Shown in pieces: positions 10,811 to 48,548 of a DNA stretch of 49,089 nucleotides. A program made the translations under genes and the position numbers. This DNA comes from Oscillospiraceae bacterium (GTDB lineage Bacteria > Bacillota > Clostridia > Oscillospirales > Ruminococcaceae), in NCBI GenBank assembly GCA_017465665.1, contig JAFTVU010000005.1:1-49089 (forward strand), written 5' to 3'. Every line of letters starts with the position of its first letter. Position 1 is the first letter of the stretch. The notes under the pieces were generated by a model. The model was not told the DNA's origin and did no database searches. It saw only the letters and a program-made list of their open reading frames with translations.

Positions 10811-12562
10811 TTATATATCACGTTTTCTGCTTACTATTATGTAGTTTACAGCCTTTCGTGTGGGATACTTAACGCTTGTTGCAGTAACGGTGTAAACGCC
10901 TTCCGCAGATGGTGCCTTGTAAAGGCCATTCTGGCTTATGGTTCCGCCGTTTTTATCCTCTACCTTCCATATACAGTTGAGGTTATCGCAGCCTTCAATT
11001 ATACATTCAAGACCTATAGTGCCGCGCGGCTCTATATTTACGAGATTAGGCTGAATGGAAATGCTCATTTTGTCTATTTCCATTATGACCTTTTCGTTTT
11101 CGGTTTTCTTTTTGGTCGCCTGCCAGTGGATTCTTATATTGCCCGAATGAAGCTTGTCAAGCAGTTTCACAGCTATACGGAAGGTGCCCTTATCGTTGTA
11201 CGAGATCACACTGTACTGTATCTTGGGGAATTCCATTGCATAGGGGCTGCCCTCGAAAAGATCCGGAGATCCGAAAAGGACAGTATTGTCAGTCCCGACT
11301 GAACTGCTGTTGACTGGCTCTACACCAATGGTATAAGCTATCTCGCCCTCGCCCAGACCATGTATTATTTCAGCGGAATAGTACACCTTACCCTTGTAGT
11401 CCATAGTGATGTCAATGTTTTCAACACCGCTCGCAATAAGATCATCGTCTTCCGGCTGAAGGGTGCTGACAGATTCGTTGACTCTGTCTGTCTCAGTGGA
11501 AAGCTGGTATATGGGCTGTTTCGGGAGATTGTCGAGAAGATAAGAAAGGCGACTGCCCAGAATATACTGCTTATAGGGAAGGGTAGAGATGTTTTCAATA
11601 TTGAGTGTTCCGTTATTGTCCGAGAAACGGATCTCGGCAAGATAGAGCGCATCTGCCTTAGAAGCATCTATATCCATGCCTGCAGCTTCGTGGAAATATT
11701 CTCTCAGTACACGCTTTTCCACAGGTTCATCTACGATCTCGACAGTAAAATCCAGACCATTGCTTATAACAAGTTGCTCATCACCAATGCTGATATCAAT
11801 GCTGTCCGCAGGGATAGAGATCTTGTTGAGTCCGACCATTTTTCCTGATGGAGTAAGAATGATCTCCTCTTTCTGGACATTGAATTTATCCGTGGCATTG
11901 TAATAAGATATTTCTGTAAATATCTCCCTGTTGTTGAAGAATGCGCCGTGAGTCAGTTCAAGCTCACAGGAAAGACTGCCATTAAGATCACGTTTTTCTA
12001 TCTCTACGGATATAATAAGCTTTTCGTTTACATTGACGAACTTCGGCACTGTCACTTTTACTGTCAGATTAGGCTGGCATACGAGTTCCTTTGTAGTTTC
12101 AATGATAGGGAGCATTCCACAGGCAAGTGCTTCGGGCTTGTGATTTGTCAGATACAGGTGATAGCCTTCCGCTGTTCGGTTGTAACAGGTCATAAGGCTG
12201 TCCGCAAGAGGCGATACCTGCTCTGTCATAGTTTCTTTGTATTCGATACAGAGATATGTCGCAAAATCGGTGTTTATGTTGTCGAAACCGTCTACGGAAG
12301 TTACATCTTTCAAAACAGGGCTGCTGACAAGAATATCGTTTCCGAAAGCATCATATGCGTATCCGGCTTCGACGGAAACGGTGGTGCTGTCTATGCATAC
12401 TACGTCCATACCCGAAACTACGCCGCAGCCGTAGTTTGCCAGACGCATTGCTTTCAGCTTGCTCTGCTGATATTCCTGTTCATCGCAGAAATCGCGCACT
12501 GTAAGCTGCTTGCCCTTGAAGTAATTATTTCTGATAAACTGAGATATTTCTTTTTTATTCAT
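10811..12562 (-). CDS. Baseplate-distal CIS protein with a C-terminal Ig-like domain
   Basis: About 583 residues, starting at the ATG at 12562 (AAAGGA 7 bases upstream; an ATG at 12568 lies too close to that site). The first 130 residues (N-Y-F-K-G-K-Q-L-T, G-C-G-V-V-S-G, G-Y-A-Y-D-A-F-G-N-D-I) match a conserved N-terminal domain I recall from proteins encoded at the end of CIS baseplate clusters. The middle is beta-rich and unrecognised. The last 85 residues look like a bacterial Ig-like (Big) domain with N-G-L-Y-K-A-P and Y-T-V-T-A-T. Position after gpI suggests attachment to the baseplate rim, the place of tail fibres in Afp/PVC, with the Ig tip as surface or wall contact. No tail-fibre-like collagen or lectin region is visible. 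Confidence 0.7.
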   Translation of the reverse strand: MNKKEISQFIRNNYFKGKQLTVRDFCDEQEYQQSKLKAMRLANYGCGVVSGMDVVCIDSTTVSVEAGYAYDAFGNDILVSSPVLKDVTSVDGFDNINTDFATYLCIEYKETMTEQVSPLADSLMTCYNRTAEGYHLYLTNHKPEALACGMLPIIETTKELVCQPNLTVKVTVPKFVNVNEKLIISVEIEKRDLNGSLSCELELTHGAFFNNREIFTEISYYNATDKFNVQKEEIILTPSGKMVGLNKISIPADSIDISIGDEQLVISNGLDFTVEIVDEPVEKRVLREYFHEAAGMDIDASKADALYLAEIRFSDNNGTLNIENISTLPYKQYILGSRLSYLLDNLPKQPIYQLSTETDRVNESVSTLQPEDDDLIASGVENIDITMDYKGKVYYSAEIIHGLGEGEIAYTIGVEPVNSSSVGTDNTVLFGSPDLFEGSPYAMEFPKIQYSVISYNDKGTFRIAVKLLDKLHSGNIRIHWQATKKKTENEKVIMEIDKMSISIQPNLVNIEPRGTIGLECIIEGCDNLNCIWKVEDKNGGTISQNGLYKAPSAEGVYTVTATSVKYPTRKAVNYIIVSRKRDI

Positions 12563-12605
12563 ACTCATTTCCTTTCGGACAGATCGTCTGAAATATACCG
12601 ATCGG

Positions 12606-13598
12606 TCAGTCTGACAGTATCATACCGCTGTCGAAGCTATCGTCGGACAACAGGAGCGTGTCATCATGTGTAGTGCTGTTGTTGCGCCTGAGAACCAGTC
12701 TGCCTTGAATGCCGACAGGGGTGAATTCCTTTATCAGCCTTATCAGCTCCGAATGATGTCTGCCTGAGGGTACATCATCATAATCCACGGTTATGGTAAA
12801 TTCACTTCGTCCGGTTATATCTATATCAGCTGGATGTCCCAGAATGATTTCAAGCATTTCGGCAAGAGCCGTCTGCGTACCCTTCATGCGTATCAGCCGG
12901 CTACTGTGACGTACCATTTCTCTCAGTGCATCATCGCCCCATAGACTGCCGGTTTTTATGCCCTGCCATTCCTGTAGCTTTTCCAGCATCGCAGTGTCTG
13001 CTGTGTCGATATCAAGCTGTCGGTCAAATTCCGAGATCTGTTGGTCAATGTTATTGAATACCGCACGGTACAATGCAAGCATGGAGGCCAACTGTCCGTT
13101 GTCGTTACGCCCGAAGCATTCGGGAAGTGCGTCCAGATAGGTCTGATAAGGATAGTGTATGGTAAGCGAGCTTATTTCAAGCTTTTTCCCGTTATCCGGT
13201 ACTGCTTCCACAACAAACCACAGATATCGTCCTTTCAGCGTATGCAGAGGAGCGCTGTGTGGATTTACAAACGTTACCGCACGTATATCTGAGGATATCA
13301 TAGACGGATCACCTTCCATGATAGCCTTCAGTGCTTCCTGAGTTGGAGCTTCTGCTCCACCAATGTTAACGGTCAGCTTATTACTTGCAAAAGCAGTAAA
13401 CCTGAAAAAGCTGTTTGGATCCAGCTGATGGGATATATCAACATGATCCCATATCGTGCCGTTAGTTCCGCTGTCCAACGTATTACTGATCCACCAGCCT
13501 GTTTTGTCGAAACTGAGCGTGTCAGCTACATCGGCGTTGTTCAGGGTGCCTTTTGATATTGTATCCCCACTGCAAAAAGCGAAGTATTTATTGTTCAA
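12606..13598 (-). CDS. Tail protein I-like baseplate wedge protein
   Basis: 330 residues with a TTG start at 13598, supported by AAAGGAGG 7 bases upstream. Residues 1-150 form a beta-rich N-terminal domain. From about 153 the pattern L-P-E-C-F-G, then L-A-S-M-L-A-L-Y-R-A-V-F, D-Q-Q-I and L-E-K-L-Q-E-W-Q-G-I is that of phage tail protein I (P2 gpI). A V-R-H-S-S-R-L-I-R-M-K-G-T segment matches the R-x-R-G-T-x-x-x-L of CIS homologues (Pvc12/Cis12-like). It should join gp25 and the J proteins in the baseplate wedge, which triggers sheath contraction. Confidence 0.85.
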   Translation of the reverse strand: MNNKYFAFCSGDTISKGTLNNADVADTLSFDKTGWWISNTLDSGTNGTIWDHVDISHQLDPNSFFRFTAFASNKLTVNIGGAEAPTQEALKAIMEGDPSMISSDIRAVTFVNPHSAPLHTLKGRYLWFVVEAVPDNGKKLEISSLTIHYPYQTYLDALPECFGRNDNGQLASMLALYRAVFNNIDQQISEFDRQLDIDTADTAMLEKLQEWQGIKTGSLWGDDALREMVRHSSRLIRMKGTQTALAEMLEIILGHPADIDITGRSEFTITVDYDDVPSGRHHSELIRLIKEFTPVGIQGRLVLRRNNSTTHDDTLLLSDDSFDSGMILSD

Positions 13599-13626: not shown

Positions 13627-15633
13627 TCAGTTAATATCTGCCGATTTAAGATATAATCTGCTGCCTGAGGTAGCGGTGATGCTGGTATGGGAAACGCCCT
13701 CGTTGGGGTATATCGTCATTTTCAGCGAAGACACGCTGTCTACACATTTGAGCGTGCTTACGGCTTTCAGCAGCTCGGCATAATCGACCGTTCCTGCTGA
13801 GCGCTGTGCGAAATAGTCTTTCACAAAGCTTATGATATCATCTCTGACATCTGCTGTTGCGGGAGCCGCATTGACAGTCATTCTGACGCAAACGGGGATA
13901 TATTCGGGGAAGACTACACGAAGCTTTGTCGTAATGAGGCAGGCTCTGCTGAGGGCTTTTCGGATATTTTCCGTATACCAGTCGAGTGCATTGTGGTTTC
14001 TGCCGTAAAGCTCACATTCAGGCTCTATAAGCAGCGTTATTGAGTTGTTGCCGCTGTCGAATACCTCTGCGCTTTTGATAAACAAGCCTTTGACATCCAT
14101 TGCAGCTGAAATGAAATCCTGCTCGGTAAGCAGCGTGTGTTCGGTCTTTTCGGTGAGTATTCGTCTGAAGAAATGCTCGGTACTCTCATGGTTTGTGCCG
14201 CCGTGGGCATTTATTATGCGTATTCCGTTTTCTGCGGATCTGTTGTCCGCTATATTTCCGCTTTCTCCATCTGTGAGAACGAGAGAAGTCAGAATAAGCT
14301 CGCCATGCGGAACCGAACCATGAATATCGTCACCGAAAACGATACAGCCAAGCTGTTCGTCTATCGAGAACACCTTGTCGGAAGATCCGCAGGTATGAAG
14401 CTTTTCGGTGTAGTTCCATTCCTGCCATAATGCGTCCTCGCGGTCTTCTTTTATCATTAACTTGCAAGCGCTTCCGATAACACCGCTGAAATTGAGCATT
14501 ATTTTACTGTTAGAGCAGTTTTCACATCTGTAAACGGTAAAATCGTGAACATATTCTTTTTCATAAAGCACCAGCATAAGTGCGTCATCATGTATGTCGT
14601 CGCGCGCAAATAGATCAAGCAGAGTGGTCCTTGATGATGTTGCAAGGCGATATTCGCCGTTCTCGTTCACCACATCATAGGCGATATCCATATCTTCTGC
14701 GGCACAGTAGCCTGCGGCAGTTTTAACAAACAATCTGTAAATTCCGCTTTCGGCAAGTGCATGGCTGAATACCATTTGGTTTTCGGCAAAGCTTTCGTGG
14801 CCGAATTTTACAGAGGTGCATTTGGTATCGGTCTGCACGAGCTGAACGCAGGAAAGATATGCACCGGTAATAAGCGGAAGCTTGTCAAAGCCACGTTTTT
14901 TTACTACTGCGCGGATAGGATAAACACCGTCAAGTTCGGTATGTGTTCGGTTGAGCCTGAGTACCGTTTCACCTGTTCTAAAGCAGTTGAAGGTGCCGTC
15001 GGATACGATCTCTGCGTCACACCATGAGCCATTGCTGTAAAACTGCCACAATATCTCAGAACCCGTATCGAAATCATCCATGTTATCGGGTAAAGTTCGT
15101 CCTTGTACATCAAAAACAAGCGTAATATTTACATCTTCATCAGATGGTAGCGGTTGTGCAAAGCCTATTACGAAATCGTCGCTGTGTGAAAACATCGTAA
15201 CGCTTGGTGCTTTTTCGCTGGTATCAACTGCGGAAATAAGGTTGCTCTTACCGTTCATACTGCCGTATCTCACAGCTTTGTTTCCGTCATAGACCGCATT
15301 ATTCGCCAGTTCAAAAACATGGCCTTCTGTGTGCAATTTAGTGCCCTTGCACAGACTGATGCTTTTGGAAAAACAGGCGGTTGCCGATGCAGCGACCGAA
15401 GTGTGTGGCTCAAAGCCGTACAGTCTGCCGAGATACGTGATGGCATCGGAACTGATCTTATTCATGTTTGAGCGTTGTTCCAGCGCAAGATATGTCAGCA
15501 GCTCAAGCAGTGCAATGCCTACGCTGTTTTCGGTAAGGTTGCTCCATTCCGTTGTAAGCGCGGGTATTCTGCTTTTAAGCCTTGCCAATGTATCTTCAAA
15601 ATCAGGTCTACCGATCTCAGGCAGTTCCAGCAT
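13627..15633 (-). CDS. Baseplate J-like protein (second of two)
   Basis: 668 residues; GGAGTG lies 8 bases before the ATG. The N-terminus (L-P-E-I-G-R-P-D-F, T-E-N-S-V-G-I-A-L-L-E-L-L-T-Y) is the usual start of gpJ/gp6-like wedge proteins. A beta-rich insert follows, then a C-terminal half with A-H-G-G-T-N-H-E-S-T-E-H-F-F-R-R-I, L-T-E-Q-D-F-I-S-A-A and V-K-G-L, typical of Baseplate_J. It forms the wedge ring with the J protein encoded just upstream, gpI and gp25. Two J-type proteins in a row are normal for CIS; this one is smaller. Confidence 0.88.
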   Translation of the reverse strand: MLELPEIGRPDFEDTLARLKSRIPALTTEWSNLTENSVGIALLELLTYLALEQRSNMNKISSDAITYLGRLYGFEPHTSVAASATACFSKSISLCKGTKLHTEGHVFELANNAVYDGNKAVRYGSMNGKSNLISAVDTSEKAPSVTMFSHSDDFVIGFAQPLPSDEDVNITLVFDVQGRTLPDNMDDFDTGSEILWQFYSNGSWCDAEIVSDGTFNCFRTGETVLRLNRTHTELDGVYPIRAVVKKRGFDKLPLITGAYLSCVQLVQTDTKCTSVKFGHESFAENQMVFSHALAESGIYRLFVKTAAGYCAAEDMDIAYDVVNENGEYRLATSSRTTLLDLFARDDIHDDALMLVLYEKEYVHDFTVYRCENCSNSKIMLNFSGVIGSACKLMIKEDREDALWQEWNYTEKLHTCGSSDKVFSIDEQLGCIVFGDDIHGSVPHGELILTSLVLTDGESGNIADNRSAENGIRIINAHGGTNHESTEHFFRRILTEKTEHTLLTEQDFISAAMDVKGLFIKSAEVFDSGNNSITLLIEPECELYGRNHNALDWYTENIRKALSRACLITTKLRVVFPEYIPVCVRMTVNAAPATADVRDDIISFVKDYFAQRSAGTVDYAELLKAVSTLKCVDSVSSLKMTIYPNEGVSHTSITATSGSRLYLKSADIN

Positions 15634-15659: not shown

Positions 15660-18362
15660 TTATTGCTCTTTGATATTGATTATTGGCATACCGCAGACGG
15701 GCACACCGAATTTTATTTTTATCGCGTCCTCATAGTCAAGTGTAAGCTCTCCGTTTTTGCAGATAAGCTGAATGTTGTCCACGCTTGTCACATGGGGGAT
15801 ATCCGAAATTATCTCATACATTTGGGAAATAGTTGGGTATGTACCTATCCTGAATCCTTCACCTGAAATATCGCCACTGATAGGGTCAAGGAAGGTTTTG
15901 AGTCTTGAGATAATTGCATTTTCGATAGCCTGCGGAAATACCTTTTCGTCTGTCCTGCACAGAATAACAGGCTGTATTTCGATATAAACCGCAGGGATTA
16001 TATTTAGCTTGTCACGCATATGGAACGGCATGACAGGCAGTATTGCGTTGGAAACGCTCAGCTTTGCCGCTGTAAACTCTCCGTCAAAGCGTCTGTCGGT
16101 AAGCAGTACAAGTGTTACGGTTGAATGTTTGAAGTAGCAGCGCGCATCCAGGATAGATGGATCAGCGTTTTTAGCAGCGATCTCATAATCCTTTTCGCTT
16201 ATGCAACGCTCCAGCGTGCTTACCTTTGATGTGCCGCGTGTATAGCATTGATCAAAGCTTTCGGTATTGCGACCGCCATGGGTATTTTCGGGGTTTGTTA
16301 CGGTGTCGACAAATGGCACAGGATCAAGGAAATAGCTGATCTCTCCTGCATTCAGATTGCCTGCGGCACCTGTTGTGACCGAATATCTGACACGTACTGT
16401 CGGCTCATCGGCAGCAGGCGGAACAAAACCTCGGTCAAATCGCAGTATTCCGTTACCGTTATCGAGCGAGAACTGTTCGTTTGAAAGAGATATCCAGTTT
16501 CCGTTGTTAAGTACCGTTACCTGTGCATCGTATACCGATCCCGAACCAAGTTTTAACTCGGGCTTTGTATCATCTGAAGCGATGATAAATCCCATTTCAG
16601 CCATGTTTTTCTGCTGGCATATCTGAACAGCATTAAGATGGATGCCATCAAGCAATACAGTGTCAGGGCGTGTTTTCATGGCGATCCTGAGCCAGTAGCC
16701 TTTTTGCCCGAAAAGAGTAGTAAGCTGCATAGGCTCCTCAATATAAAGCTTAACGATGCCATTCTGTCTGAAACCGTTTGTCAGATCGCTGAAAGGAAGC
16801 TCATTCCATCTGTTGCCTGCAGACAGCGACTGCCATTCGGACTCTCTGCAAAGCGCAAGTCTTTTCAGCCTGAACGCAATGCTTGTATATCCTGTGCTGA
16901 GAGGTCTGTCAAAGCACAGATAAGTATATGATGTACTTTTTTCGTGGATCTTTGGTACAGTAATTCCGGATGAGCCTGCTTCGATACAGGCAAGATCCTT
17001 GAGTAAGAAGACTGTGTCTGCAGTGTGCTGTGAGCCGTTGTAGCTGTAGCTTAGCTCTACATTTTCTACAAAAGGAAGGCGCAGAGTCATGTTCTGAGAG
17101 TACCCGGGAGTCATCTTGTCGATACGGCACCGTATGAACAATCCTTCATCAGCACCCACAAAGACAGGACTGAGATCATCGGGACAGGTAAAGGATATGC
17201 TCATGGACGCACAGCTTTCATCTGCAAAGAATTTTGAATTTTCATTGTCAGTATAGATCCTGCACCAGCCCTTGCCGTTCCAGTATTCCCATACGGCAAG
17301 CTCGATCTTTTTTACAAGAGGAGGCTTTGTTTCAAACTTTGAAACGGGGATCACATTCTTCCATTGAACGGGAACCTTTTCCTCTTTGCCCTCGATCGTG
17401 TCGACATACGAATAATTCATTGTTACTGTAACAGTGCTGCCTTTTTTGCTGAGGCAGTCGTTGCTGCAGATATAGAAGGAATCGAATTCCACAGGCCCCT
17501 CTCCGAAGGGATAGAAATTATTTGCGGTAAGCATAGTGTCGTTAAGATAGACTGCCTTTGGCGGGATCCTGTCTGCCTGTGCAGTAACTGTAACGGAAGC
17601 GGGTGATATTCTGCTCATTACATTTCCGTTTTTGAAGATCGCCTTTATCCATGAACCTTTTATACCGTTGAATTCTGTTACAGGTATGGGCTGTTGAGTG
17701 CGAAGCACGAACATATTGTTTTCAAATGTCACATCAGTGATATCATCAGCTCCGTTCTGAACAAGATATTGCCATCGGACATCGTCGCTGCCGATATCGG
17801 CATATGGAGTTGTTCCGTGCTGATCTGTGCCGGAAATGTCCAGCAAGGAAACACTGAATTCGCAGGCGCCGTCACCATGTGTGATGTCATTTGCAGAGAA
17901 TACCAGTGCAGTTTCCTGCAGATTTTCGCCACTGAAATCAAACAGTTTTTCGGTATTGCCTTTTGAAATGTAATTGTCTGCAACATAAAATACCGCAGAT
18001 ATCTGTGCGTTTGAGGCATTTAACTCCTCGGTAGTCACAAATTCCACATCTGAGGCGCTGCTCAGTCTTGTGCCACTTGGTATATATACCGAGTTTTCGG
18101 AAGTTGGCATGACGCATACATATCCCGATGCAGGAGAAGCGTTGTTCTGCTTCAGTCCATACATGTTGAGATACATAAGATGATGTCTTTCCCATATAGA
18201 AGAAAGCTCTGCGCTGTTTTGTGCCATCAGCTCTGCAAAAAGCTCTGCGAGTGCCGAAGCTGCTCCGGGCTTTGCCGGATCCCAGTTCGGGGTGTAGTAT
18301 TCGGAAAGCTGTCTGAGCTGTTTTAATATAGCTTTCTTTTCTTCATTTTCTCTGATAGTCAA
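15660..18362 (-). CDS. Baseplate J-like protein (first of two)
   Basis: 900 residues with a TTG start at 18362, GGAAAGGG lying 9 bases upstream. The N-terminus (Y-Y-T-P-N-W-D and A-L-A-E-L-F-A-E-L-M-A) matches CIS 'putative baseplate assembly' proteins of the Pvc11 type. A long middle region holds several beta domains. The C-terminus carries the Baseplate_J signature N-T-H-G-G-R-N-T-E-S-F, L-E-R-C-I-S-E-K-D-Y-E and closes with V-T-S-V-D-N. It is the largest wedge component and is cotranscribed with gp25 (20 bases upstream). Confidence 0.88.
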   Translation of the reverse strand: MTIRENEEKKAILKQLRQLSEYYTPNWDPAKPGAASALAELFAELMAQNSAELSSIWERHHLMYLNMYGLKQNNASPASGYVCVMPTSENSVYIPSGTRLSSASDVEFVTTEELNASNAQISAVFYVADNYISKGNTEKLFDFSGENLQETALVFSANDITHGDGACEFSVSLLDISGTDQHGTTPYADIGSDDVRWQYLVQNGADDITDVTFENNMFVLRTQQPIPVTEFNGIKGSWIKAIFKNGNVMSRISPASVTVTAQADRIPPKAVYLNDTMLTANNFYPFGEGPVEFDSFYICSNDCLSKKGSTVTVTMNYSYVDTIEGKEEKVPVQWKNVIPVSKFETKPPLVKKIELAVWEYWNGKGWCRIYTDNENSKFFADESCASMSISFTCPDDLSPVFVGADEGLFIRCRIDKMTPGYSQNMTLRLPFVENVELSYSYNGSQHTADTVFLLKDLACIEAGSSGITVPKIHEKSTSYTYLCFDRPLSTGYTSIAFRLKRLALCRESEWQSLSAGNRWNELPFSDLTNGFRQNGIVKLYIEEPMQLTTLFGQKGYWLRIAMKTRPDTVLLDGIHLNAVQICQQKNMAEMGFIIASDDTKPELKLGSGSVYDAQVTVLNNGNWISLSNEQFSLDNGNGILRFDRGFVPPAADEPTVRVRYSVTTGAAGNLNAGEISYFLDPVPFVDTVTNPENTHGGRNTESFDQCYTRGTSKVSTLERCISEKDYEIAAKNADPSILDARCYFKHSTVTLVLLTDRRFDGEFTAAKLSVSNAILPVMPFHMRDKLNIIPAVYIEIQPVILCRTDEKVFPQAIENAIISRLKTFLDPISGDISGEGFRIGTYPTISQMYEIISDIPHVTSVDNIQLICKNGELTLDYEDAIKIKFGVPVCGMPIINIKEQ

Positions 18363-18381: not shown

Positions 18382-18771
18382 TTAGAATTGTTCCTTCAGT
18401 GGGAAACTGAGCATCTGCTCCCTTGCATTTTCCTTGATCTTATAGGTTATGTTTATCACAAGTGTTTCTGCGCTGAGCGTAGAGCCATCTGCGGTATCGA
18501 GTACGACATTAACATTCTCAACACGTGGCTCAAAAAGCTTGATTGCTGTTATCACTTCGCTGCGTATGTTGTTGAGCAGCGAATAATTCACCGTTTCAAA
18601 CGCAAACTGCGACAGATTACAGCCGTAATTCGGCCTCATGATACGTTCACCCTTGCGGGTGCTGAGCAGCATATAAAGCGACTGGCGAATATCATTTTCC
18701 AGAGAATTCATTTCAGTGCAGCCGTTGTTGAACACGATAGGATATTTCCAGTCTGTTCTTTCTTCTTTCAT
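18382..18771 (-). CDS. gp25-like baseplate wedge protein
   Basis: About 129 residues from the ATG at 18771, whose first base is the last base of the upstream stop codon (TGATG), with GAGGA 9 bases before. R-Q-S-L-Y-M-L-L-S-T-R-K-G-E-R-I-M-R-P-x-Y-G-C-N-L is the hallmark of the GPW/gp25 family (R-G-E-R and P-x-x-G). It links wedge proteins to the sheath base and is a core part of all contractile tails. Translation appears coupled to the membrane receptor gene ahead of it, which is unusual. Confidence 0.92.
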   Translation of the reverse strand: MKEERTDWKYPIVFNNGCTEMNSLENDIRQSLYMLLSTRKGERIMRPNYGCNLSQFAFETVNYSLLNNIRSEVITAIKLFEPRVENVNVVLDTADGSTLSAETLVINITYKIKENAREQMLSFPLKEQF

Positions 18772-39140: not shown

Positions 39141-39154
39141 CCGAGGTGAACGAA

Positions 39155-41221
39155 TTGCAGATGTTCAGCAGCTCTACGGAGCAGCTGCAGATGTATGAGC
39201 AGCTTATCGATATCTATCTTTCCGAGTATATGGAGCAGGTAGTAAGCAAAATGGAGGTCAGTGATACTCCGTTTGAAAAATACAAGGGTCTTGTTGTGTC
39301 CATGGAGGAAGCACAGTATGCAATATCAAGACCCCGCTTCGTGCTGTCCGAAAACGGAAAGAGATCGGTTTCAGAGCTGTATGAAGTTATAGAACAGCGT
39401 ACTGCGCTTTCCAAAGAAGCAGGAGTCAGACTCCCGCTTGACAACATCTGCGAGAACTTCGGCTTCGGTTTGCTGGAACGTTTTATTATAGCCTTTTCTG
39501 CAATGCCGCTGATAAATCTTTCTTATGAAAAGACATTCGGATATATAAATGATAACGTAAAGCTTTCAGCGCCTACGCTGGAGCTTGCGCTCAATATCTT
39601 TGCAGGCGGAGATCTTTCGCTCGTGCCGACTCTGAGCAACGTACTTGTGAAGTATTTCTTTGAGGAAAACAAACAGAATCCACTGAAAAGTGCACTCCGA
39701 TTAAGGGATTATTATGCATATCTGCTTTCAGGGATGGGTTATTACAGCAATTATGATTTCATGGCAATGTCCTCTGTGAAAGAGAGAGGGTTCCTGTGTT
39801 ATCCCAAGCAGTATGATGAGTTCTGCGGCATTATCAGCTCGGATATCAGTATAACGGTTCTCGTCGAGGGCGATGAGGGTTGTGGCAGGCGTCACCTTAT
39901 AAAGCAGGCGGCACTTGTTACAAGAAATCCTGTGCTTATGGTCGATCTTCAGGCGTATTGTAAGGAAGAAGAAAAGGATTCAGCGGATATTGATATCGTA
40001 AATCAGCTTATTATGCGCCAGTGTTATATCTGTATATACGGTGTGACTGATGAAAGCGATATGAAGCAGCTGCGCCACCTGTGCGATATCGCAGGAAAAG
40101 TCGCAAGGCTGTTGTTTGTCTGCGCTGATAAAGGCACGGATGCGGCATCGCAGCTTGATCGCAATGTATATTTGATACAACTGGGGGATCTTTCACATGA
40201 TGAGCGTTTTGGATTATGGAAGACCTTCGGTTTCGGGAATGATGATATCCTTCATGAGATATCAGGCAAATACAGATTCCGCCCTGCGCAGATAGTTACA
40301 GCCGCAAACGCAGTAAAGGACAGGCTTCAGCTCAGTGCAAGAAAAGAGGAGATATCGCTTTTTGATGAGTGCTGTGCAAGACTGACCGAAAACTGTATGG
40401 GCGACAAGGCGCAGAGAATAGAAAGCAAGTTTACGCTTGACGATCTGGTGCTTCCCGATGAGGAAAAATCACAGATCAGAGAGGCTTGTGCGCATATAAA
40501 ATACCGCCATCTGGTGTATGATAAATGGAATTTTGAAAGCCGTCTTTCCTACGGCAAGGGGCTGACAGTCCTCTTTGCGGGCCCCCCCGGAACTGGTAAG
40601 ACCATGGCGGCAACAATCATGGCAAGAGAGCTTGGTCTGCCTGCGTATCGCGTGGATATTTCCCGTGTTATGTCAAAGTATATCGGTGAAACAGAGAAAA
40701 GCCTGGGCGAGATCTTTGATATTGCACAGCAAAGCAATGCGATCCTTTTCTTTGATGAAACAGATGCCCTTTTCGGAAAGCGTTCCGAAATAAAAGACAG
40801 CCATGATAAATATGCCAATGTAGAAACATCGTTTTTGCTGCAGCGGCTTGAGAGCTTTGACGGGATCGTTCTGATGTCAACTAATTTATTGCAGAATATA
40901 GACGATGCCTTCATGCGTCGTATAAGTTATATCGTAAACTTCCCCTTCCCCGACGCTTCACGCAGACTGGAACTGTGGAAGAAGATGTTCCCACCCGAAA
41001 TGCCGGTTGACGGTGAGCTGGATCTTGAATATCTTGCATCTCAGTTTGAGCTGTCAGGTGCGCTGATAAAGAACACCGTAATGTCTGCAGCGTTTCTCGC
41101 TGCCGATGAGGGTGAGGCAGTCAATATGCGCCATATACTCAGAGCTGTCAGAAAACAGCTGTCTAAACAGGGCAGAGTGCTGCTCAGAGAGGATCTCGGT
41201 AAATACTCAATGTTCTTCTGA
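39155..41221 (+). CDS. CIS AAA+ ATPase (Pvc15-like)
   Basis: About 688 residues. I chose the TTG at 39155, 6 bases after GAGGTG; the ATG at 39161 is two codons on, and an in-frame ATG at 39077 lies inside the PAAR-like gene. A helical N-terminal region and a degenerate first NTPase fold (E-G-D-E-G-C-G-R-R in place of G-x-x-x-x-G-K-T) precede a working AAA+ module: F-A-G-P-P-G-T-G-K-T (Walker A, about 475), L-F-F-D-E-T-D-A-L-F (Walker B, about 534), S-T-N-L (sensor 1) and M-R-R-I (Arg finger). This is the layout of the Afp15/Pvc15 ATPase of CIS, thought to remodel subunits or load cargo. Confidence 0.93.
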   Translation: MQMFSSSTEQLQMYEQLIDIYLSEYMEQVVSKMEVSDTPFEKYKGLVVSMEEAQYAISRPRFVLSENGKRSVSELYEVIEQRTALSKEAGVRLPLDNICENFGFGLLERFIIAFSAMPLINLSYEKTFGYINDNVKLSAPTLELALNIFAGGDLSLVPTLSNVLVKYFFEENKQNPLKSALRLRDYYAYLLSGMGYYSNYDFMAMSSVKERGFLCYPKQYDEFCGIISSDISITVLVEGDEGCGRRHLIKQAALVTRNPVLMVDLQAYCKEEEKDSADIDIVNQLIMRQCYICIYGVTDESDMKQLRHLCDIAGKVARLLFVCADKGTDAASQLDRNVYLIQLGDLSHDERFGLWKTFGFGNDDILHEISGKYRFRPAQIVTAANAVKDRLQLSARKEEISLFDECCARLTENCMGDKAQRIESKFTLDDLVLPDEEKSQIREACAHIKYRHLVYDKWNFESRLSYGKGLTVLFAGPPGTGKTMAATIMARELGLPAYRVDISRVMSKYIGETEKSLGEIFDIAQQSNAILFFDETDALFGKRSEIKDSHDKYANVETSFLLQRLESFDGIVLMSTNLLQNIDDAFMRRISYIVNFPFPDASRRLELWKKMFPPEMPVDGELDLEYLASQFELSGALIKNTVMSAAFLAADEGEAVNMRHILRAVRKQLSKQGRVLLREDLGKYSMFF

Positions 41222-41235: not shown

Positions 41236-44200
41236 ATGAATTTTGCCAATGCTACAAAGATCTCAAAAGAAGCTATACTGGAACGCAAGCAGATGCTTGA
41301 CGTTGCACGCGAGGAAGATGCGGCGATTGTCGATAATCTGACCGAGCTTAGCAGAATAAAGCAGGCAGAAAACAATAAGACCCGCGAGCCAAACAGGATC
41401 GTAGGCTTTTTTAAGAGGCTTTTCAGCTTTTTCAGCAGAAGAAGTGCCTCCAAAAGATATACAAGCGGTGATATGTCAACGGGTTCTGGCAAGGAGCGTA
41501 TGGGCGGAGCTTATGAGGAGTTCCTGCTGGCACAGCTTTCGTTCCAGACCGGTGGCAGCACTGCCTACAAGGACAATGCGCAGGCAAGCCTGCAGTTTTC
41601 TTCCAGAAGCAGTAACGGTGGCTCAGAAGCAGATACAAGCACTGCTGCCATTGACCGTGATATGAGCAGGAGAGGCAATAGGATCAGTAATTCCTCGACT
41701 GTTGTAACATACAAGGACAAACTGCGCCTTATTGACGTTACTGCAGCCTTTAAGATGAGAGGCGGATTCGGGCAGACAACAGCGCAATACAGAGCAAAGA
41801 CCGCAAGCCTCAAGCTTATGAACGAGTATCGCAAGCTCACTGTTCACGGAAATGGAAACGGTGCGTTTACGCTGCTGCATGATTATACTTCCGATACGGA
41901 TAAGTTCGGAGAGGTAGTAAGCGCAGATATCTATTACAGTAACGCTGAGATCGAAACAGGTAACTTCTTTATTCGCGACGGACGTCAGGGGCCTGAGCTC
42001 ATTTTCGGCGGAGCAAACGGAAGTATTACTGTTCCCGATCTTTTCAAGGCGAATTTCTTTGCTGCTGAAGCCAATGGTACAGATATCACCGCTTCGGATA
42101 TTATGATCTACCCGCTGAAAAATATTCTGTCATGGAAAGCTAATGAGAGTATTCCGATGGATGGAAATTTCGTTATGAATGACAACGGACTGCTTATTCA
42201 GACAGTACCGTTTGAGATGGAAAGCATAGAGGCTATGGGCGGTCTGTTCAAGGCTGAACAGGCACGCTTTAATATGGCTGTCAATGAGTCAGGCGATGTC
42301 GGACTTGAGTCAAACCTCGGAAAATGGAAACTCGGAGTGTCGCTGGAAAATATCGCAAGCATCGAGAAAACAGGCGTAAATACTGATGTGGAGGTCACCG
42401 AGGACCGCAGATTGCGTATTCCGAACAACGCTTCCGAAAAATACAGGTTGTCGCTTCTGGGTCATGATTTTGAGCTTCAGGCAACAGGCGCCGATACATT
42501 TATCGAAGTCGGTGAAAAATTCCTCGGACTCGGATTCAATCCTATAGATATTTCAATCGGCGGTTTAACCATAGAACAGGCACAGCTGAATATAGGCGTG
42601 GGCAAAGGTCAGGCAGAGCTTGGCTTCAGTGCAGACGCTATATCCAAGGCGGAACAGGGCGAATCTGTATTCCCTGAAGGAATGCAGATAGCCAACGTCA
42701 AGGGTAAGATCAGCGAAAAAGGTGTACAGGTCGAGTCGGCTGAAATGAGCTACACAGGCGAGATCGGCGGAGTTTCGATCGGCGATATGAGAGCTGGTAT
42801 CACCAACCTCGTTATTAACAACGACGGAGTATACTTTGATAAAATAGCAGCTACCGTCAATGATATGGCGATAGGCTCTTATGCTTCTGTGACAGAAGCA
42901 GGCGTTTCGTTGACTAAGGCAAAAGAGGACAAGGGCGTAAGTATAAATGTACTCTTTGGCGGACTTGATCTTAATATTGAGGACAAGATACCCTATGTTG
43001 ATATAAGCGCAGAGGGTATAAAAGGCGATATAAGCATCAAAGAGGGGGATTCCTCTGTATCTATTGATGGCGGAAGTATCAGCGTGAGCGTGAAGGATTT
43101 CGTTACACTTACATTGAATGACTTCGCTTATGCAAACGGAACGTTTTCTGCTGAAACTGTGCGCGCAGATATTCTCAACGGCGGTAAATTCGAGTCAGAG
43201 CTTTTCTGCGTTGATGCAGTGTCGCTGGCAGCCACAAAGCTTGCTATCAACCAAAATGGCTTGTCAGTCGAAGATGGCGGTAAGATCAGTGCAGAGCTTG
43301 AAAGAGTAAAGCTCGCAGGAGTTGATATCAGCAATATCAATGCCGATATTGATCCCGCAAATTGGAATGTAAAGGCGCAGGCTGAACTGAAAGACGTAGG
43401 ACACGATTTCGATTTTGCTTCGCTGAAGTTCGGCGGTGTGATCGGTGTTGAATATACAGACGGAGCACTCACTGCCGTTGTCGATGGCATTAGTGCATCG
43501 ATAGATACCGACTATTTCACACTGTCTGTGTCTGAAATCAGTAAGACCTCAGGCAAGGATCTTCAGTTCGGTAGCGTTGTTGTCAGCACCAGCAAGCTGC
43601 TGGGCGACAAGGCGATAACTGCGAATGTAAAGGATCTTGTTCTCAGCAGATATGCGTCGAACATTTCGTTTGGCAGTATCGTTATAAACTATAACAGCGA
43701 CATCAGTATTTTTGGTGCGGTGATCATCGAAACGCCGCAGGTAGAGATCGCCGAGAATTTCTCGGGATTCATAGCAGGGGGAAAAGTGCGCCTTGATACG
43801 CCGCTCCTTGAAGCAAGCGGTGACTTTGAGGTGTCTTTCCTCAAGGATAACGGTTATTTCCCCTCTGTTACAAAGGCTGACAACCTTAGTGTTGAGATCA
43901 AAAATGTCGCAAAGATCGACAATATAGAGGTAACAAGCGTGCAGGACGAGCTGCGCATTAAGTTCAGCAATATCGATCTTGATAAGAAATTCGGTTCCGG
44001 CTTCAGCCTTTCTGCCGAGTCTTTAGGCGGTACTTTCCATCTGTCTAAAAAGGATAAGGTGCGTCTGACCGATGTAAGCGGCAGCATAAATGCGTCCTAT
44101 CAGGATTTCTTCAGCCTTTCGCTCTCAGATATCGCTAACGATGATAAGGGTATCTATGCAGGAAACATCAACGCAACACTTACAAAGACCGATTTCTTCG

Positions 44201-47200
44201 GCGGAATGATCAAGATAGCGGGAATTGAAGTCAATGCAAAGAATATCGGAATCAGCAGCCGAGGCTTGTACGTCGGTGAGGGCGCATCCTTTGACGCTCT
44301 TATAAAAGGCATGAATATAGCGGGATGCGAGATCAGCGCTGTAACAGCTGCGATTGGCCCTGAGGGAGCGTTTGAGGCAGGAATAAACTTTGCCGAGCAA
44401 GGATCTGAGGTAAAGCTCTCCGATGGATTTTCATTTGTCTTTACAGGTGCGGCGCAGTTTGGTTATGACAACGGCACTCTGTCTATTGACCTTTCCAAGA
44501 CGGGTATCGGCTTCAAAACCCAAATGATGGAAATGACGGCAGCAGGTATTTCTGCTGAAGTCGGCGGATTCGGAATCGAAAAGCTCGATGTCAGCATAAA
44601 GAATATTCCCGGACTTGACGGTGCTGTAGCTGCACAGGCAAAAAGTCTCTTGCTCACCCGTGATAAGCTGGGCTTTGAGAGCATAACAGTGTCCTATTCC
44701 GATAAGATATCCCTGTTCGACGGAATGATCACAGTTGATAAGCCCGTTGTGGATATCCAAAACAACTTTGAAAGAATAGAAGCAAGCGGTAATATCGGCT
44801 TTACGACCAAGGTCTTGAATGCAGGCGGCGATATCAGAGTCGCTTATGACAGGAGCAAAACTATGCCTGAGCTTGTGTCGGCGAAAAATGTGTCGTTGGG
44901 AATCGATAAGGTAGGTACATTGTCGATCGGCGAGATGCTTACCGAGAATGATGCCAAGACACTTCGCTTCAATGATATTGCTCTTGAAGGCTTCAGTCAT
45001 GATGGCGATGGGGAAGGCAGATCGTTGTTTGAGAGAATGTGCTCCACCATCAGAGAGGGTATGTCGGCAACTCTGGCAACCGCTACATATGACAAGACGA
45101 ATGGATTGCAGTACAACTTTGACGATATTCAGTTCAAGATAAAGCAGTATAAGATTCCTTTCGGCGAAAAGGGCGAGGCTATCATAAATGTTCAGGATAA
45201 GATATTGCATCTTGATTATGCAATAAGTCTTCCGAACGATCATAAATTCCCTGCAGACGCTAAAAACTGGCAGGTTCCGAGGCTTATTGAGCTGGGTGCG
45301 GATTATCCTATCATCCCAGGTGCAGTATCCGTCGGTGGCTCGTTGTTTGCGGGTGCGGCAATGAATGCAACAGCCGCTCTTGATATGAAGCTCGATACGA
45401 CCGAAAAGTCAGTAGTGGGTAATGCGGCTGCCGAACTTAAAGCAATAGCAGGCGTAGGCGCAAATGCAAAGCTCACCATAGGTGTGCCCGGTCTTGCTTC
45501 ACTAGTGCTGGGACTCGAGGGCACTCTTGCGGGAATGATTTCCGATTCCCGCATTCAGGCAAATATCGGAGTTCAGATGCTCAACGGCAGACCCGATATC
45601 ATGAAGGAAAAGACCGATTTCAGCTATGACCTCAATTTCAAAATGAAGTCATATCTTAAGGCGTTCGTCAATGCTAAGGCGCTGTTCGTTCTGGATAAGC
45701 AGCTTTACAGTGCCGATATCGCCAATATCGATCTCTGCTCGGCAGCACTGTCGGGTAGTGCGGGCTTTGGCGTCGACGGCAAATGGAGACTCAACGATGA
45801 CAGAGTGTTTGATTTCAATCTCGGCGAACAGCTCAAAGATGTGCTCAATATCCGCTCAGCAGGAGAGCAGCTTGATAAAGCACGAAGCCTGAATAATAAA
45901 ATGAAGGAATATCAGGCAATGATCGGTTTCGATGTCTGGGGCTCGGAAAAGGCATTCTATACCGCATCCAAGCTACAGGGCGATATCATGAGTCAGCTTT
46001 CGGCCATAAGCGAACTGAGCGAGTATGCCATTAAACGACTTGCATCAATTGATAAGAAGTCGATCGACGCAGAAAAAGAGCAGGACCGCAGCAGAGCTGA
46101 TATAGAAAATAAAGCGCTTATACTTGAGCGTGTTGCTAAGCTGAATTCAGGAAATGATATGTCAGAGGCTGACCTCAGGATGGCAGCTACTATTGACATC
46201 CTTCTCCAGAAGAAAGCAGATAAAAATACCCTGAAGTCGGCAGACGTGATGCCGATGATATCGTCACTGCATGATGTTGAACCGATCAAGGTCATGGCAT
46301 ACATCAGTAAGAGGTGGGGACTTAATGTAAAATCAGGCAGCTCGGAAGGAGGACGCTTGGGTGAGGACGATGTTATCAAGTATCAGAATGACTATGTAGT
46401 TCTCAGGAAAACATTGAAATCTATCTATGATCGTCCGATAAACTATGAGAGAGAGCAACTTGAATCCTTGTATGAAACTGCGGTCAATTCAAGTAAAAAG
46501 GTGATTTCGGACAGCCGTCTGAACAATCAGACGTTCATGGAAAAGTCATCTGCCACCCTGAAAGATATAAAGCTCAAAAATGAGGAGTATATCAAGATCA
46601 CCGCCCAAATAGTTGAGGCTGAAAAGAATATCAACGAATATGCTGAAAAAGAAAAAAATGCAAGCGCCAAGGAAATGGAGCTGATGAATGATGAGGCCTC
46701 TGCATCAGCTAACCAGAGCAAGATAGCTGAACAACGTAAAAAGGTCGGCAAATATGTCCTTAAGCTTGATGAGTATAAGAAAAAGAAGAACAAGCTGGTT
46801 GAAACACAGTCAGCAATCAGTACTTCTCTTAACGTCATAAAGCTCCAGTTCGTCAATAACACGGATACCCAGAAGCTAGTAGAAAGTATCGGCTTCAGTG
46901 CAAACGAATTCAGGGATAAACGTAAGGCGATGAGCGATCAACGTGATAAGCTTATTGATTACAATAAAGTCATCAGACATAATGAGGCAGCGATCGATCT
47001 GTCGGGTATTCATTCCCCTGAAAACAGCAAGACAAAATACGATCTTAATCCCCTCAGAGCAATGGTAAACGAGATGGGCAGCAGCTCTTATAACGATAGC
47101 TACAAGAAGGTGATAGAGGACTTTATTTCCGCAAACACTACAAGTGTTTCTTATGACCAGTACAAGGATATCAGCGACAAGCTCCTCAGCAAAAACCGTG

Positions 47201-47697
47201 AAAAGAACACTGCCAGATACACAAGACTGTTGACCCACAGACTTGTAACCGCTGACAAACGCAACCAAACGGATTTTGTTGAAGACAAACTCTTAAGACG
47301 AATGTTGGGCGAAGATTTCACCAAAGATGTTTCCAGTGAGAAAAAAGGTCAGGAACTGATAGATGCTCTGTCATTGGATATGGTAACTAAAATGAATACC
47401 AGCAGCTCTGATATCGAAGAAAGGCAGAATCATATCAGGGCGCTTGAGGATATCATCATTCAGGCGGCAGAAGCCAACAGCACAGCAATCAGTACATTGT
47501 ACAAGCTCAATGAGATATCTCCACAGTCCTTCGCCGTGGATTATGATCCTTATCAAGAAAATTCCTCAACCGAAGGCGTGAAGAATTCTATCGGCACATT
47601 GGCCAAGGGTGAAGAATTTGAAGACGGCGAGTATGCTTCCATGATCAACAGACTTCACAATGAGGCCAAAACCATAACCAATGAAATAAAACAATAA
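41236..47697 (+). CDS. Giant 2153-residue protein with tandem beta repeats and a coiled-coil C-terminus
   Basis: AAAGGAGG precedes the ATG, 14 bases after the ATPase stop. There is no signal peptide or membrane helix. A basic amphipathic stretch (G-F-F-K-R-L-F-S-F-F-S-R-R) lies near residue 57. From about 180 to 1500 the chain is short strands and turns (V-K-G-K-I-S-E-K-G-V, I-N-A-T-L-T-K-T-D-F). Two units of about 336 residues are clearly alike: they start at D-F-V-T-L-T-L (621) and D-F-F-S-L-S-L (957), with inner matches such as I-S-I-F-G-A-V-I and I-S-L-F-D-G-M-I; a weaker third copy precedes them. The pattern recalls AsmA/TamB/VPS13-type beta grooves. From about 1545 to 2150 it is charged helix, probably coiled coil. 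The family is unknown to me. Place at the end of the operon fits cargo, a fibre or an anchoring rod. Confidence 0.75.
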   Translation: MNFANATKISKEAILERKQMLDVAREEDAAIVDNLTELSRIKQAENNKTREPNRIVGFFKRLFSFFSRRSASKRYTSGDMSTGSGKERMGGAYEEFLLAQLSFQTGGSTAYKDNAQASLQFSSRSSNGGSEADTSTAAIDRDMSRRGNRISNSSTVVTYKDKLRLIDVTAAFKMRGGFGQTTAQYRAKTASLKLMNEYRKLTVHGNGNGAFTLLHDYTSDTDKFGEVVSADIYYSNAEIETGNFFIRDGRQGPELIFGGANGSITVPDLFKANFFAAEANGTDITASDIMIYPLKNILSWKANESIPMDGNFVMNDNGLLIQTVPFEMESIEAMGGLFKAEQARFNMAVNESGDVGLESNLGKWKLGVSLENIASIEKTGVNTDVEVTEDRRLRIPNNASEKYRLSLLGHDFELQATGADTFIEVGEKFLGLGFNPIDISIGGLTIEQAQLNIGVGKGQAELGFSADAISKAEQGESVFPEGMQIANVKGKISEKGVQVESAEMSYTGEIGGVSIGDMRAGITNLVINNDGVYFDKIAATVNDMAIGSYASVTEAGVSLTKAKEDKGVSINVLFGGLDLNIEDKIPYVDISAEGIKGDISIKEGDSSVSIDGGSISVSVKDFVTLTLNDFAYANGTFSAETVRADILNGGKFESELFCVDAVSLAATKLAINQNGLSVEDGGKISAELERVKLAGVDISNINADIDPANWNVKAQAELKDVGHDFDFASLKFGGVIGVEYTDGALTAVVDGISASIDTDYFTLSVSEISKTSGKDLQFGSVVVSTSKLLGDKAITANVKDLVLSRYASNISFGSIVINYNSDISIFGAVIIETPQVEIAENFSGFIAGGKVRLDTPLLEASGDFEVSFLKDNGYFPSVTKADNLSVEIKNVAKIDNIEVTSVQDELRIKFSNIDLDKKFGSGFSLSAESLGGTFHLSKKDKVRLTDVSGSINASYQDFFSLSLSDIANDDKGIYAGNINATLTKTDFFGGMIKIAGIEVNAKNIGISSRGLYVGEGASFDALIKGMNIAGCEISAVTAAIGPEGAFEAGINFAEQGSEVKLSDGFSFVFTGAAQFGYDNGTLSIDLSKTGIGFKTQMMEMTAAGISAEVGGFGIEKLDVSIKNIPGLDGAVAAQAKSLLLTRDKLGFESITVSYSDKISLFDGMITVDKPVVDIQNNFERIEASGNIGFTTKVLNAGGDIRVAYDRSKTMPELVSAKNVSLGIDKVGTLSIGEMLTENDAKTLRFNDIALEGFSHDGDGEGRSLFERMCSTIREGMSATLATATYDKTNGLQYNFDDIQFKIKQYKIPFGEKGEAIINVQDKILHLDYAISLPNDHKFPADAKNWQVPRLIELGADYPIIPGAVSVGGSLFAGAAMNATAALDMKLDTTEKSVVGNAAAELKAIAGVGANAKLTIGVPGLASLVLGLEGTLAGMISDSRIQANIGVQMLNGRPDIMKEKTDFSYDLNFKMKSYLKAFVNAKALFVLDKQLYSADIANIDLCSAALSGSAGFGVDGKWRLNDDRVFDFNLGEQLKDVLNIRSAGEQLDKARSLNNKMKEYQAMIGFDVWGSEKAFYTASKLQGDIMSQLSAISELSEYAIKRLASIDKKSIDAEKEQDRSRADIENKALILERVAKLNSGNDMSEADLRMAATIDILLQKKADKNTLKSADVMPMISSLHDVEPIKVMAYISKRWGLNVKSGSSEGGRLGEDDVIKYQNDYVVLRKTLKSIYDRPINYEREQLESLYETAVNSSKKVISDSRLNNQTFMEKSSATLKDIKLKNEEYIKITAQIVEAEKNINEYAEKEKNASAKEMELMNDEASASANQSKIAEQRKKVGKYVLKLDEYKKKKNKLVETQSAISTSLNVIKLQFVNNTDTQKLVESIGFSANEFRDKRKAMSDQRDKLIDYNKVIRHNEAAIDLSGIHSPENSKTKYDLNPLRAMVNEMGSSSYNDSYKKVIEDFISANTTSVSYDQYKDISDKLLSKNREKNTARYTRLLTHRLVTADKRNQTDFVEDKLLRRMLGEDFTKDVSSEKKGQELIDALSLDMVTKMNTSSSDIEERQNHIRALEDIIIQAAEANSTAISTLYKLNEISPQSFAVDYDPYQENSSTEGVKNSIGTLAKGEEFEDGEYASMINRLHNEAKTITNEIKQ

Positions 47698-47717
47698 ATC
47701 AACAAAGGAGTGAGCAA

Positions 47718-48548
47718 ATGAAATCTGCACTCAATAACGGTAAATATCTCATAATGAGTATAGTATCCGAAAGTGAGGATATAACCGTCTATATAGCGCG
47801 CAATCATGCAAAGCAGCAGTTTGTTGTGAATGAAGTAAAAAGCATTTCACTTATAAATGAATGGCTGCCGAAGATAAACGGATTGAGTGAGGAGGGCAGG
47901 ATCTGCTGCTTTACGGAAAGCTCCAATCTTTATATCGTTACCCGATATTATGATGGTGACAATCCTGAGTATATCTTTTCGGGAGGAAATACCGAGCTTT
48001 CGATGAAACTTGAAATGATAAAAGCGTTTACCTTTTCTCTGATCAGCTATTCGGAGTTTCCGGATTTTATCCTGAAAAGCCTACTGCTGCCTGAGAACGT
48101 ATGCGTATACCGAAACGAGCTCCGCTCGAATTGCATGATATTGACAGGTGAGAAAAAAACGCCGATGCAGCTTTTTTATGATCTTATGAATGACTATTTT
48201 ACGATAGATGATGTTAAAAAGCTGTCATATATCAGCATTGTTATAGAAAAACTGAAAAATGGCGTGTATTCTGATTTTATGCAGGTGTATCTGGATATGG
48301 ATCAGCTTACTGGCAAGCTGCAGCAGAACAATGCTATATCTAAGCTGAAGTCGTTCTATCAGCGCAGCAAGGGCTACATAACGATAGCGATATCGGCTGC
48401 GGTGATAGTGCTGGCGATCATTGTCATATACAATATGTTTATAAAAGGCTCGAAAGATTCAACAGGACAGACGCACAATCCGATAGACCACATCGGAACG
48501 GTCATGCTGGAGGAGAATACCTCGCAGCATACAACAGAACCTGAATAA
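47718..48548 (+). CDS. Membrane-anchored pseudokinase-like protein
   Basis: 276 residues; AAAGGAG lies just upstream, 20 bases after the giant gene. Residues 8-60 look like a kinase N-lobe (I-M-S-I-V-S-E-S-E-D-I-T-V-Y-I-A-R), but the VAIK lysine is absent (F-V-V-N-E-V). L-Y-I-V-T-R-Y-Y-D-G (71-80) resembles a kinase hinge, and L-L-P-E-N-V-C-V-Y (123-131) the region after a lost H-R-D; no D-F-G is seen. A membrane helix spans 219-242, leaving a 34-residue outer tail rich in His, Asn and Thr. Pseudokinase-plus-helix is also the design of EssB/YukC of type VII secretion, though I cannot show homology. It may hold the CIS or the giant protein at the membrane. It ends the operon. Confidence 0.7.
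   Translation: MKSALNNGKYLIMSIVSESEDITVYIARNHAKQQFVVNEVKSISLINEWLPKINGLSEEGRICCFTESSNLYIVTRYYDGDNPEYIFSGGNTELSMKLEMIKAFTFSLISYSEFPDFILKSLLLPENVCVYRNELRSNCMILTGEKKTPMQLFYDLMNDYFTIDDVKKLSYISIVIEKLKNGVYSDFMQVYLDMDQLTGKLQQNNAISKLKSFYQRSKGYITIAISAAVIVLAIIVIYNMFIKGSKDSTGQTHNPIDHIGTVMLEENTSQHTTEPE

Follow-up and report, generated by a model that had tools for sequence, protein, structure and literature searches.

A 49,089-nucleotide stretch of an Oscillospiraceae bacterium (GenBank assembly GCA_017465665.1, contig JAFTVU010000005.1, positions 1 to 49,089; hereafter the window), one contig of a metagenome-assembled genome (MAG) of 155 contigs, carries a contractile injection system (CIS) locus in which structural genes are interleaved with genes for five envelope proteins. 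An original prediction made from the sequence alone had described this arrangement, and a Pfam scan of 29 window proteins together with hydropathy analysis agreed with it at the same coordinates. Comparison with related genomes revealed that a conserved envelope module tied to the CIS in Bacillota is real. The five genes comprise a near-constant pair, a MORN-repeat protein with a transmembrane (TM) segment (MORN-TM) and a HAMP-domain receptor; a frequent third member, a pseudokinase-like membrane protein (pkin); and an optional pair, a secreted TolC-like protein and a secreted stalk-domain protein. Judged by linkage and predicted topology, the Bacillota CIS is on balance rather likely to form in the cytoplasm and to be held, either permanently or upon a signal, against the inside of its producer's membrane through this co-encoded module, with an envelope receptor as its gate.

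The association of the envelope genes with the CIS is far above chance. Among 396 sampled genomes of the window's family, 35 encode the sheath, the window's own included, and MORN-TM (threshold E <= 1e-20) was found in 33 of these versus two of the 361 sheath-negative genomes (Fisher p = 2e-43). pkin occurs in 23 of the 35 versus one of the 361 (p = 2e-27), i.e., 23 of 24 pkin-positive genomes are sheath-positive, and the TolC-like protein in 8 of the 35 versus one of the 361 (p = 1e-8); because the sampled genomes are related, these p values are nominal. One of the two sheath-negative genomes with MORN-TM (G303) has a contig with matches to the adaptor, hub, spike, gp25, J, Tail_P2_I (TailI), the fibre-like protein fib585, pkin, MORN, cap and PAAR, and the other (G016) is 55% complete and has a 7.8-kb contig with receptor, MORN, TolC and stalk matches. 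Of the two sheath-positive genomes without MORN-TM, G138 has a contig whose sequence ends within fib585, and G220 has a broken tube gene beside the sheath and no further CIS match in 40 kb.

A second sample was built around loci. The 80 named loci are the best of 217 relatives; the genomes behind 20 were inspected and 19 loci were extended, one of them that of Oscillospiraceae bacterium isolate SIG524 (L092, G396), which was excluded from the locus counts because it nearly duplicates the window. An apparent class of relatives with the core only proved to be mostly an artefact of stretches ending before the envelope module, and it vanished after locus extension. Of 61 locus entries, eight of which come from a second contig of a genome that another entry represents, 39 were counted as covered, their sequence holding the sheath, fib585, and cap or PAAR; the other 22, without the sheath, without fib585, or without both cap and PAAR, were excluded. 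Counted with hidden Markov models (HMMs) built partly from the same loci, MORN-TM is present in 39 of the 39 covered loci, a HAMP-receptor match in 38 (of at least 800 residues in 33), pkin in 26, a TolC-like protein of at least 600 residues in 11 and the stalk protein in 10. The receptor counts were also filtered by length because the receptor HMM matches other HAMP proteins as well, for example that at 3776-6586 of the window; in some loci its match is split into pieces. Alignments A3, A4, A5 and A7 each represent a subset of the known members, and genes crossing the border of a stretch were avoided. Of 18 genomes behind named loci, 17 had MORN and 11 had pkin. The proposed tie of the envelope genes to the CIS thus has strong backing from family co-occurrence and locus counts alike, and the idea that the five genes form one set holds for MORN and the receptor, and frequently for pkin, but not for the optional TolC-like and stalk genes.

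All five genes occur together in ASF356 (Clostridium sp. MD294), Heliorestis acidaminivorans, an Epulonipiscium MAG, two Fusibacter species, UBA6806 and, within the window's family, genomes of 0.7-1.0 Mb, and Brevibacillus porteri has MORN and the receptor only. A CIS locus of the Bacillota type that includes pkin and MORN also stands on a contig labelled as a Bacteroidales MAG (L163), which may come from a mislabelled bin or one of mixed origin. A sheath tree built from 44 loci, leaving out nine whose sequence does not cover the module, placed the window with Epulonipiscium, ASF356 and Heliorestis (98/93) and required at least three changes in the presence of TolC; the tree labels Paenibacillus oleatilyticus and P. 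piri as TolC-negative despite TolC-HMM matches of unusual length (492 and 1140 residues), and the P. piri match is counted among the 11 of 39 loci given above.

Gene order ties pkin to the baseplate periphery. fib585 and pkin are adjacent in 33 of the 35 entries with both, the exceptions being the window and F. ferrireducens, in which fib585 is cut off at the edge. fib585 adjoins TailI in 31 of 38 entries; in the seven in which it has left TailI, pkin adjoins it in six, and in the seventh (G157) pkin was not found. This persistence of the fib585-pkin pair where fib585 has left TailI is the strongest clue that pkin and MORN may hold the baseplate side. The receptor adjoins pkin in 23 of 37 entries and MORN in 29 of 49, and is elsewhere placed after PAAR. 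Where MORN and the TolC-like gene are both present, the latter comes after MORN in 15 of 16 entries; the stalk gene in turn comes after the TolC-like gene in 15 of 15.

A family search started from the window's pkin (47718-48548, plus strand) returned only itself, and its relatives were located by position. Profiles of these relatives match Ser/Thr kinases at 9e-4 (alignment A1) and 2e-6 (the wider alignment A8); in the latter case, all 60 matches shown of 202 are kinases, and the match stops at the catalytic loop. The catalytic Asp of the HRD motif is missing in 13 of 13 pkins, where L, I, V, M or C replaces it, and the DFG position is ambiguous owing to spacing. A hydrophobic segment (residues 219-237 in the window) is followed by a tail with the motif [IVL]Gx[VIL], IGTV in the window, found in 34 of 37 pkins versus 11% of shuffled tails, although the motif was picked after the alignment had been viewed. 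Tails reach 117-180 residues in seven cases; long-tailed pkins are encoded at L190:7189-8304, L193:14628-15743, L195:11058-12173, L224:6089-7228, L221:5557-6846 and L234:11925-13139. Four of the five long-tailed pkins scanned, a set including L221, which had no match, and excluding L190 and L193, matched LysM, with E values of 5e-4 to 0.011, all below the Pfam cut-off. Kinship with EssB/YukC, the pseudokinase of the type VII secretion system, was considered and gained no backing from sequence: none of 13 members gave a Pfam match to that family (E <= 1, HMMER filters on).

fib585 (10811-12568, minus strand), a baseplate-periphery fibre-like protein, has an N-terminal domain that matches NF053767 (CIS13_fam) over residues 9-147 (E = 1.8e-19; 70 bits versus a curated cut-off of 370) and a C-terminal part that appears Ig-like by eye. 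The CIS13_fam domain was matched in all eight homologues scanned, and the fib585 profile also gave a weak match in the Protein Data Bank (PDB) to All3314 of 7b5h, from the thylakoid CIS (E = 0.005).

The HAMP receptor (18771-21560, minus strand) lies within the baseplate gene run, as its open reading frame (ORF) overlaps those of gp25 (18382-18822, minus strand; PF04965, 4e-23), by 52 bp when gp25 is counted from its first ATG, and of the PF19266 tube/adaptor protein (21557-22174, minus strand; 1.7e-29). It had been foreseen as a four-helix receptor within the baseplate operon, and hydrophobic segments do start at residues 15, 367, 395 and 582, with HAMP at 599-650 (2e-7); the topology and signal peptides of all envelope proteins were predicted by hydropathy only. 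Its C-terminal domain resembles class III cyclases, with PDB profile matches to adenylyl cyclases (best 3.5e-9). In 11 homologues, Pfam recognised HAMP in 11 and Guanylate_cyc in one, and inspection of the alignment found the metal-binding Asp positions lost in all 11. Measured against the class III motif of two metal-binding Asp residues, the cyclase-like domain appears degenerate. MORN-TM (31919-33304, plus strand) consists of a cytosolic stretch, one hydrophobic segment near residue 76, in keeping with the single membrane helix ascribed to it, and then MORN repeats (3.1e-11) that are related to solved MORN proteins.

The secreted TolC-like protein (33316-35337, plus strand) and the secreted helical stalk-domain protein (35358-37673, plus strand) were likewise recovered as predicted, both with a hydrophobic N-terminus, the former with an OEP match (3.3e-7; OEP in 7 of 11 members) and the latter with a C-terminal Cu_amine_oxidN1 domain (PF07833, 4.3e-6). 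An AlphaFold2 (AF2) model of the TolC-like protein from four sequences is of low confidence (mean predicted local distance difference test score, pLDDT, 54), and it matched 44 PDB chains at E <= 1e-3, 37 of them titled outer-membrane channels or pumps, one an efflux complex and six only membrane protein of Pseudomonas aeruginosa, with TM-scores of about 0.3 (query) and 0.5 (target). The protein thus appears to have a duplicated OEP helical hairpin and would share the two-repeat helical fold of the TolC/outer membrane efflux family. It may differ from TolC at the sites of the TolC barrel, where no strands are predicted (residues 77-111 and 311-355, pLDDT mostly < 50), and it has extra C-terminal beta domains. 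Viral contigs scanned with the TolC alignment contained no relative. Omp85 was found in none of nine genomes, a set that includes the window's own and leaves out ASF356 and Heliorestis, in a search whose control matched in 7 of 14; because Omp85 is absent from all nine, the hosts look monoderm, as had been proposed. In this the TolC-like protein departs from the TolC family, and it probably exemplifies a TolC-type fold in hosts that lack an outer membrane.

In the mechanism that we favor, the CIS would assemble in the cytoplasm and dock to the inner face of the producer's own membrane, where the pseudokinase domain of pkin would grip the baseplate or fib585 from the cytosolic side. On the wall side, the complex would be secured by the pkin tail, with its IGxV-type strand and sometimes a LysM-like end, and by the MORN-TM solenoid. 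The receptor, which has two predicted extracytoplasmic regions, might release firing by transmitting a signal through its dead cyclase domain, using contact rather than cAMP. The TolC-like and stalk proteins would form an optional wall-side extension that partly replaces the longer MORN solenoid of other loci: MORN is shorter in entries with TolC and stalk (14 versus 34 entries, nominal p = 4e-5), which suggests that these two proteins take over part of its reach.

By function, the nearest known systems appear to be the haloarchaeal type VI secretion system (T6SS), the thylakoid CIS, T6SS-iv and the Streptomyces CIS with CisA; statements on cited papers refer throughout to the portions of their text that were available. 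The haloarchaeal T6SS of Halogeometricum borinquense has an eCIS-like (extracellular CIS-like) core in a host with one membrane and is docked, as seen by cryo-electron tomography (PMC11566945). Its cluster includes a clade-specific membrane protein, and its authors place Bacillota as the closest Cis11 relatives, a kinship that lends outside support to docking here (PMC11566945). The core and the one-membrane host are shared with the window locus, for which docking is a prediction. The candidate haloarchaeal anchor, compared by description only, has six TM helices and a cytosolic domain of ~150 residues, and MORN-TM, pkin, HAMP receptor and TolC-like proteins are not described for that system in the available text (PMC11566945). 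Streptomyces, Gram-positive like the hosts considered here, encodes CisA just after the baseplate genes as a single-pass membrane protein with its N-terminus inside and C-terminus outside (PMC12237407). In CisA the N-terminal region is unstructured and the outer domain resembles a substrate-binding one, whereas pkin combines a kinase-like, presumably cytosolic domain with a tail that is short or LysM-like; the two systems are further set apart, as far as the descriptions available go, by the lack of a MORN, receptor or TolC-like partner in Streptomyces (PMC12237407).

In the Anabaena thylakoid CIS, a TM helix is part of Cis13 (All3316) itself, and Cis12 (All3315) bears an extension (PMC8894136). 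That system is held in one of the producer's membranes, and the weak match of fib585 is to All3314, i.e., to neither Cis12 nor Cis13; the 7b5h domain is termed crown in PMC12923769. For T6SS-iv and the Bacteroidales systems, Cis13/Aasi_0556 has been proposed as an inner-membrane anchor (PMC12210884). The N-terminus of fib585 matches the NCBIfam family CIS13_fam, whose equivalence with Aasi_0556 is putative. These systems share the eCIS-like core of the window locus, and their hosts are diderm, unlike the apparently monoderm hosts of the window locus. Cytoplasmic CIS have also been treated (PMC12998442). Geller et al. reported no Pfam domain as highly specific to one large taxonomic group, and the word MORN is absent from the text available (PMC8213781). 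No text in the literature searched, which left subscription journals mostly outside, pairs contractile injection system with MORN or describes this envelope module. An envelope-docked CIS with these parts would stand as a novel form beside the systems above; docking in hosts with one membrane has precedents (PMC11566945; PMC12237407).

Several points count against docking. We infer it from genetic linkage and predicted topology, and the charge backing for that topology is modest, a K/R excess lying on the N side in 26 of 36 pkins (a count that omits G371, in which no TM segment was found) and 6 of 11 MORN proteins. The pkin hydrophobic segment and family profile bear out the pseudokinase-like membrane protein of the original prediction, but Pfam kinase families are unmatched in 13 of 13 pkins, the window's pkin by itself matches no solved structure among PDB sequences, and its single-sequence AF2 model (pLDDT 43) is too poor for fold comparison. 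In the window itself, fib585 and pkin stand at opposite ends of the locus. Because the pore of a TolC trimer is narrower than a CIS tube, the TolC-like protein is unlikely to be an exit duct, and that role was set aside. Relatives with the CIS core and without the envelope genes, named in advance as a check, exist for TolC and stalk, missing from most loci (28 of the 39 covered have no TolC-like match of at least 600 residues), but not for MORN. pkin is below threshold in 13 of the 39, including all six from Brevibacillus, Paenibacillus and Cohnella, and Clostridiales bacterium 1_7_47_FAA (L147, a locus outside those extended) has a related sheath and a genome in which the search found neither MORN nor pkin. 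Finally, proteins with the Bacillota anchor domain downstream of Tail_P2_I have been treated as tail fibres directed at foreign targets, and fib585 may qualify as one (PMC12923769). The domain is regarded there as a tail-fibre anchor and such proteins are likened to TssK, a description that can be read for a docked or a released particle (PMC12923769).

A more ambitious version, for which we see a limited chance, is that the locus encodes a Gram-positive counterpart of the T6SS trans-envelope complex. A wall-anchored membrane platform of pseudokinase, pseudocyclase receptor and MORN solenoid would hold the CIS and be joined by a secreted TolC-like protein and stalk that cross the peptidoglycan, and the particle would fire outward from living cells. 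This version would take in reduced-genome relatives, whose home may be inside protists.

Of low probability is a Streptomyces-like role in self-killing, in which free particles would fire into the producer's own membrane and bring about programmed lysis, the envelope proteins serving as stress sensor and landing site. pkin does resemble CisA in topology and, in most loci, in position, and the locus contains or adjoins several sensor-type genes. However, the secreted TolC-like protein, the stalk and the LysM-like tails point to an architecture spanning the wall, for which suicide has no obvious need, and retention of the locus in genomes of 0.7-1.0 Mb would be odd for a suicide device.

We consider it unlikely that the locus encodes a classical released eCIS whose envelope proteins sense the surroundings, control expression or aid release and never touch the particle. 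The presence of sensor proteins nearby and the baseplate-anchor type of domain in fib585, of a kind catalogued as a tail fibre in Bacillota (PMC12923769), would fit such a particle, yet MORN-TM and pkin are no obvious sensors and are tied to the CIS about as closely as structural genes are, and Pfam named no lysis gene among the window proteins. That the genes are chance neighbors or hitchhiking cargo is scarcely credible: gene order varies among loci and the window genes are split over two divergent runs, but they remain linked to the CIS in distant Bacillota and were hardly ever found in sheath-negative genomes of the family.

Whether Bacillota CIS are released, suicidal or docked, they gain three tied envelope families and one optional cassette. 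With named strains among the carriers (ASF356, Heliorestis acidaminivorans and Fusibacter for the TolC form, and Brevibacillus porteri), the question is open to single-gene deletion. The results also suggest that some catalogued Bacillota CIS tail fibres may instead face the producer's own membrane.

Among the carriers of the TolC form, seven have small genomes (0.7-1.0 Mb). Loci L059/L060, L070/L071 (G174, G160), L057 and L075 are from genomes of this size that retain the locus together with TolC and stalk. The J genes of G174 are fragmented, and some copies of the locus may therefore be decaying. A small-genome clade of Acutalibacteraceae, some members of which live inside termite-gut protists, has been described in a paper whose available text does not contain the word contractile (PMC10579323); size and a shared NCBI family suggest that the small-genome carriers belong to the same lineage.

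The window's CIS core is complete, recognised by Pfam at the positions originally given, and it satisfies the gene content of an eCIS: sheath, tube, adaptor, gp25, J, hub, spike, PAAR-like tip, cap and AAA ATPase. Neither capsid families nor the TssJLM families of T6SS subtypes i-iii are among the Pfam matches, the TssJLM search covering the window proteins and not the remaining genome. One run on the minus strand includes TailI (12606-13598; PF09684, 2.7e-6; TIGR02242, 3.7e-14), a second Baseplate_J-like protein (13627-15633; PF04865, 20.3 bits, just under the cut-off of 21.1), Baseplate_J (15660-18362; PF04865, 9.3e-17), the inner tube (25037-25474; PF06841, 1.8e-42) and the contractile sheath (25513-27237; PF04984 and PF17482). 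The predicted core stood except for its two tube proteins: only the inner tube is of the gp19 type, the other (21557-22174) being the PF19266 protein. A 920-residue protein (22189-24951), rich in Asn, Ser and His and assigned to the tape-measure position by location only, and proteins of 175 (27266-27793) and 278 (27717-28553) residues on the same strand had no Pfam, PHROG or NCBIfam match.

The plus strand encodes the hub (30053-31153; GPD, PF05954, 3.2e-7, 30.3 bits versus a cut-off of 30.1), the spike (31150-31893; base_V, PF04717, 1.4e-22), the cap (37687-38271; Pvc16_N, PF14065, 1.6e-20), a 156-residue protein without Pfam or PHROG match between cap and tip (38268-38738), the PAAR-like tip (38751-39140; DUF4280, PF14107, 6e-38) and the AAA ATPase (39077-41221; PF00004, 5.6e-28).

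Adjoining the CIS, at 3776-10784, are genes for a SpoIIE-type phosphatase receptor, a response regulator, a MATE transporter that ends in a HATPase-like domain, and an APH-like kinase. They are collinear in SIG524 and possibly form a linked regulatory set. The SIG524 sheath is 99% identical to that of the window and its CIS gene content and order are identical; pkin is again the last CIS gene, followed over 1.8 kb by only short ORFs without a CIS-family match. A 2153-residue protein without Pfam match (41236-47697, plus strand), encoded between the ATPase and pkin, has its sole other copy found in SIG524, and other very large ORFs (2.2-3.4 thousand residues, with hydrophobic ends) lie between the ATPase and fib585 in G031, G061 and G278.

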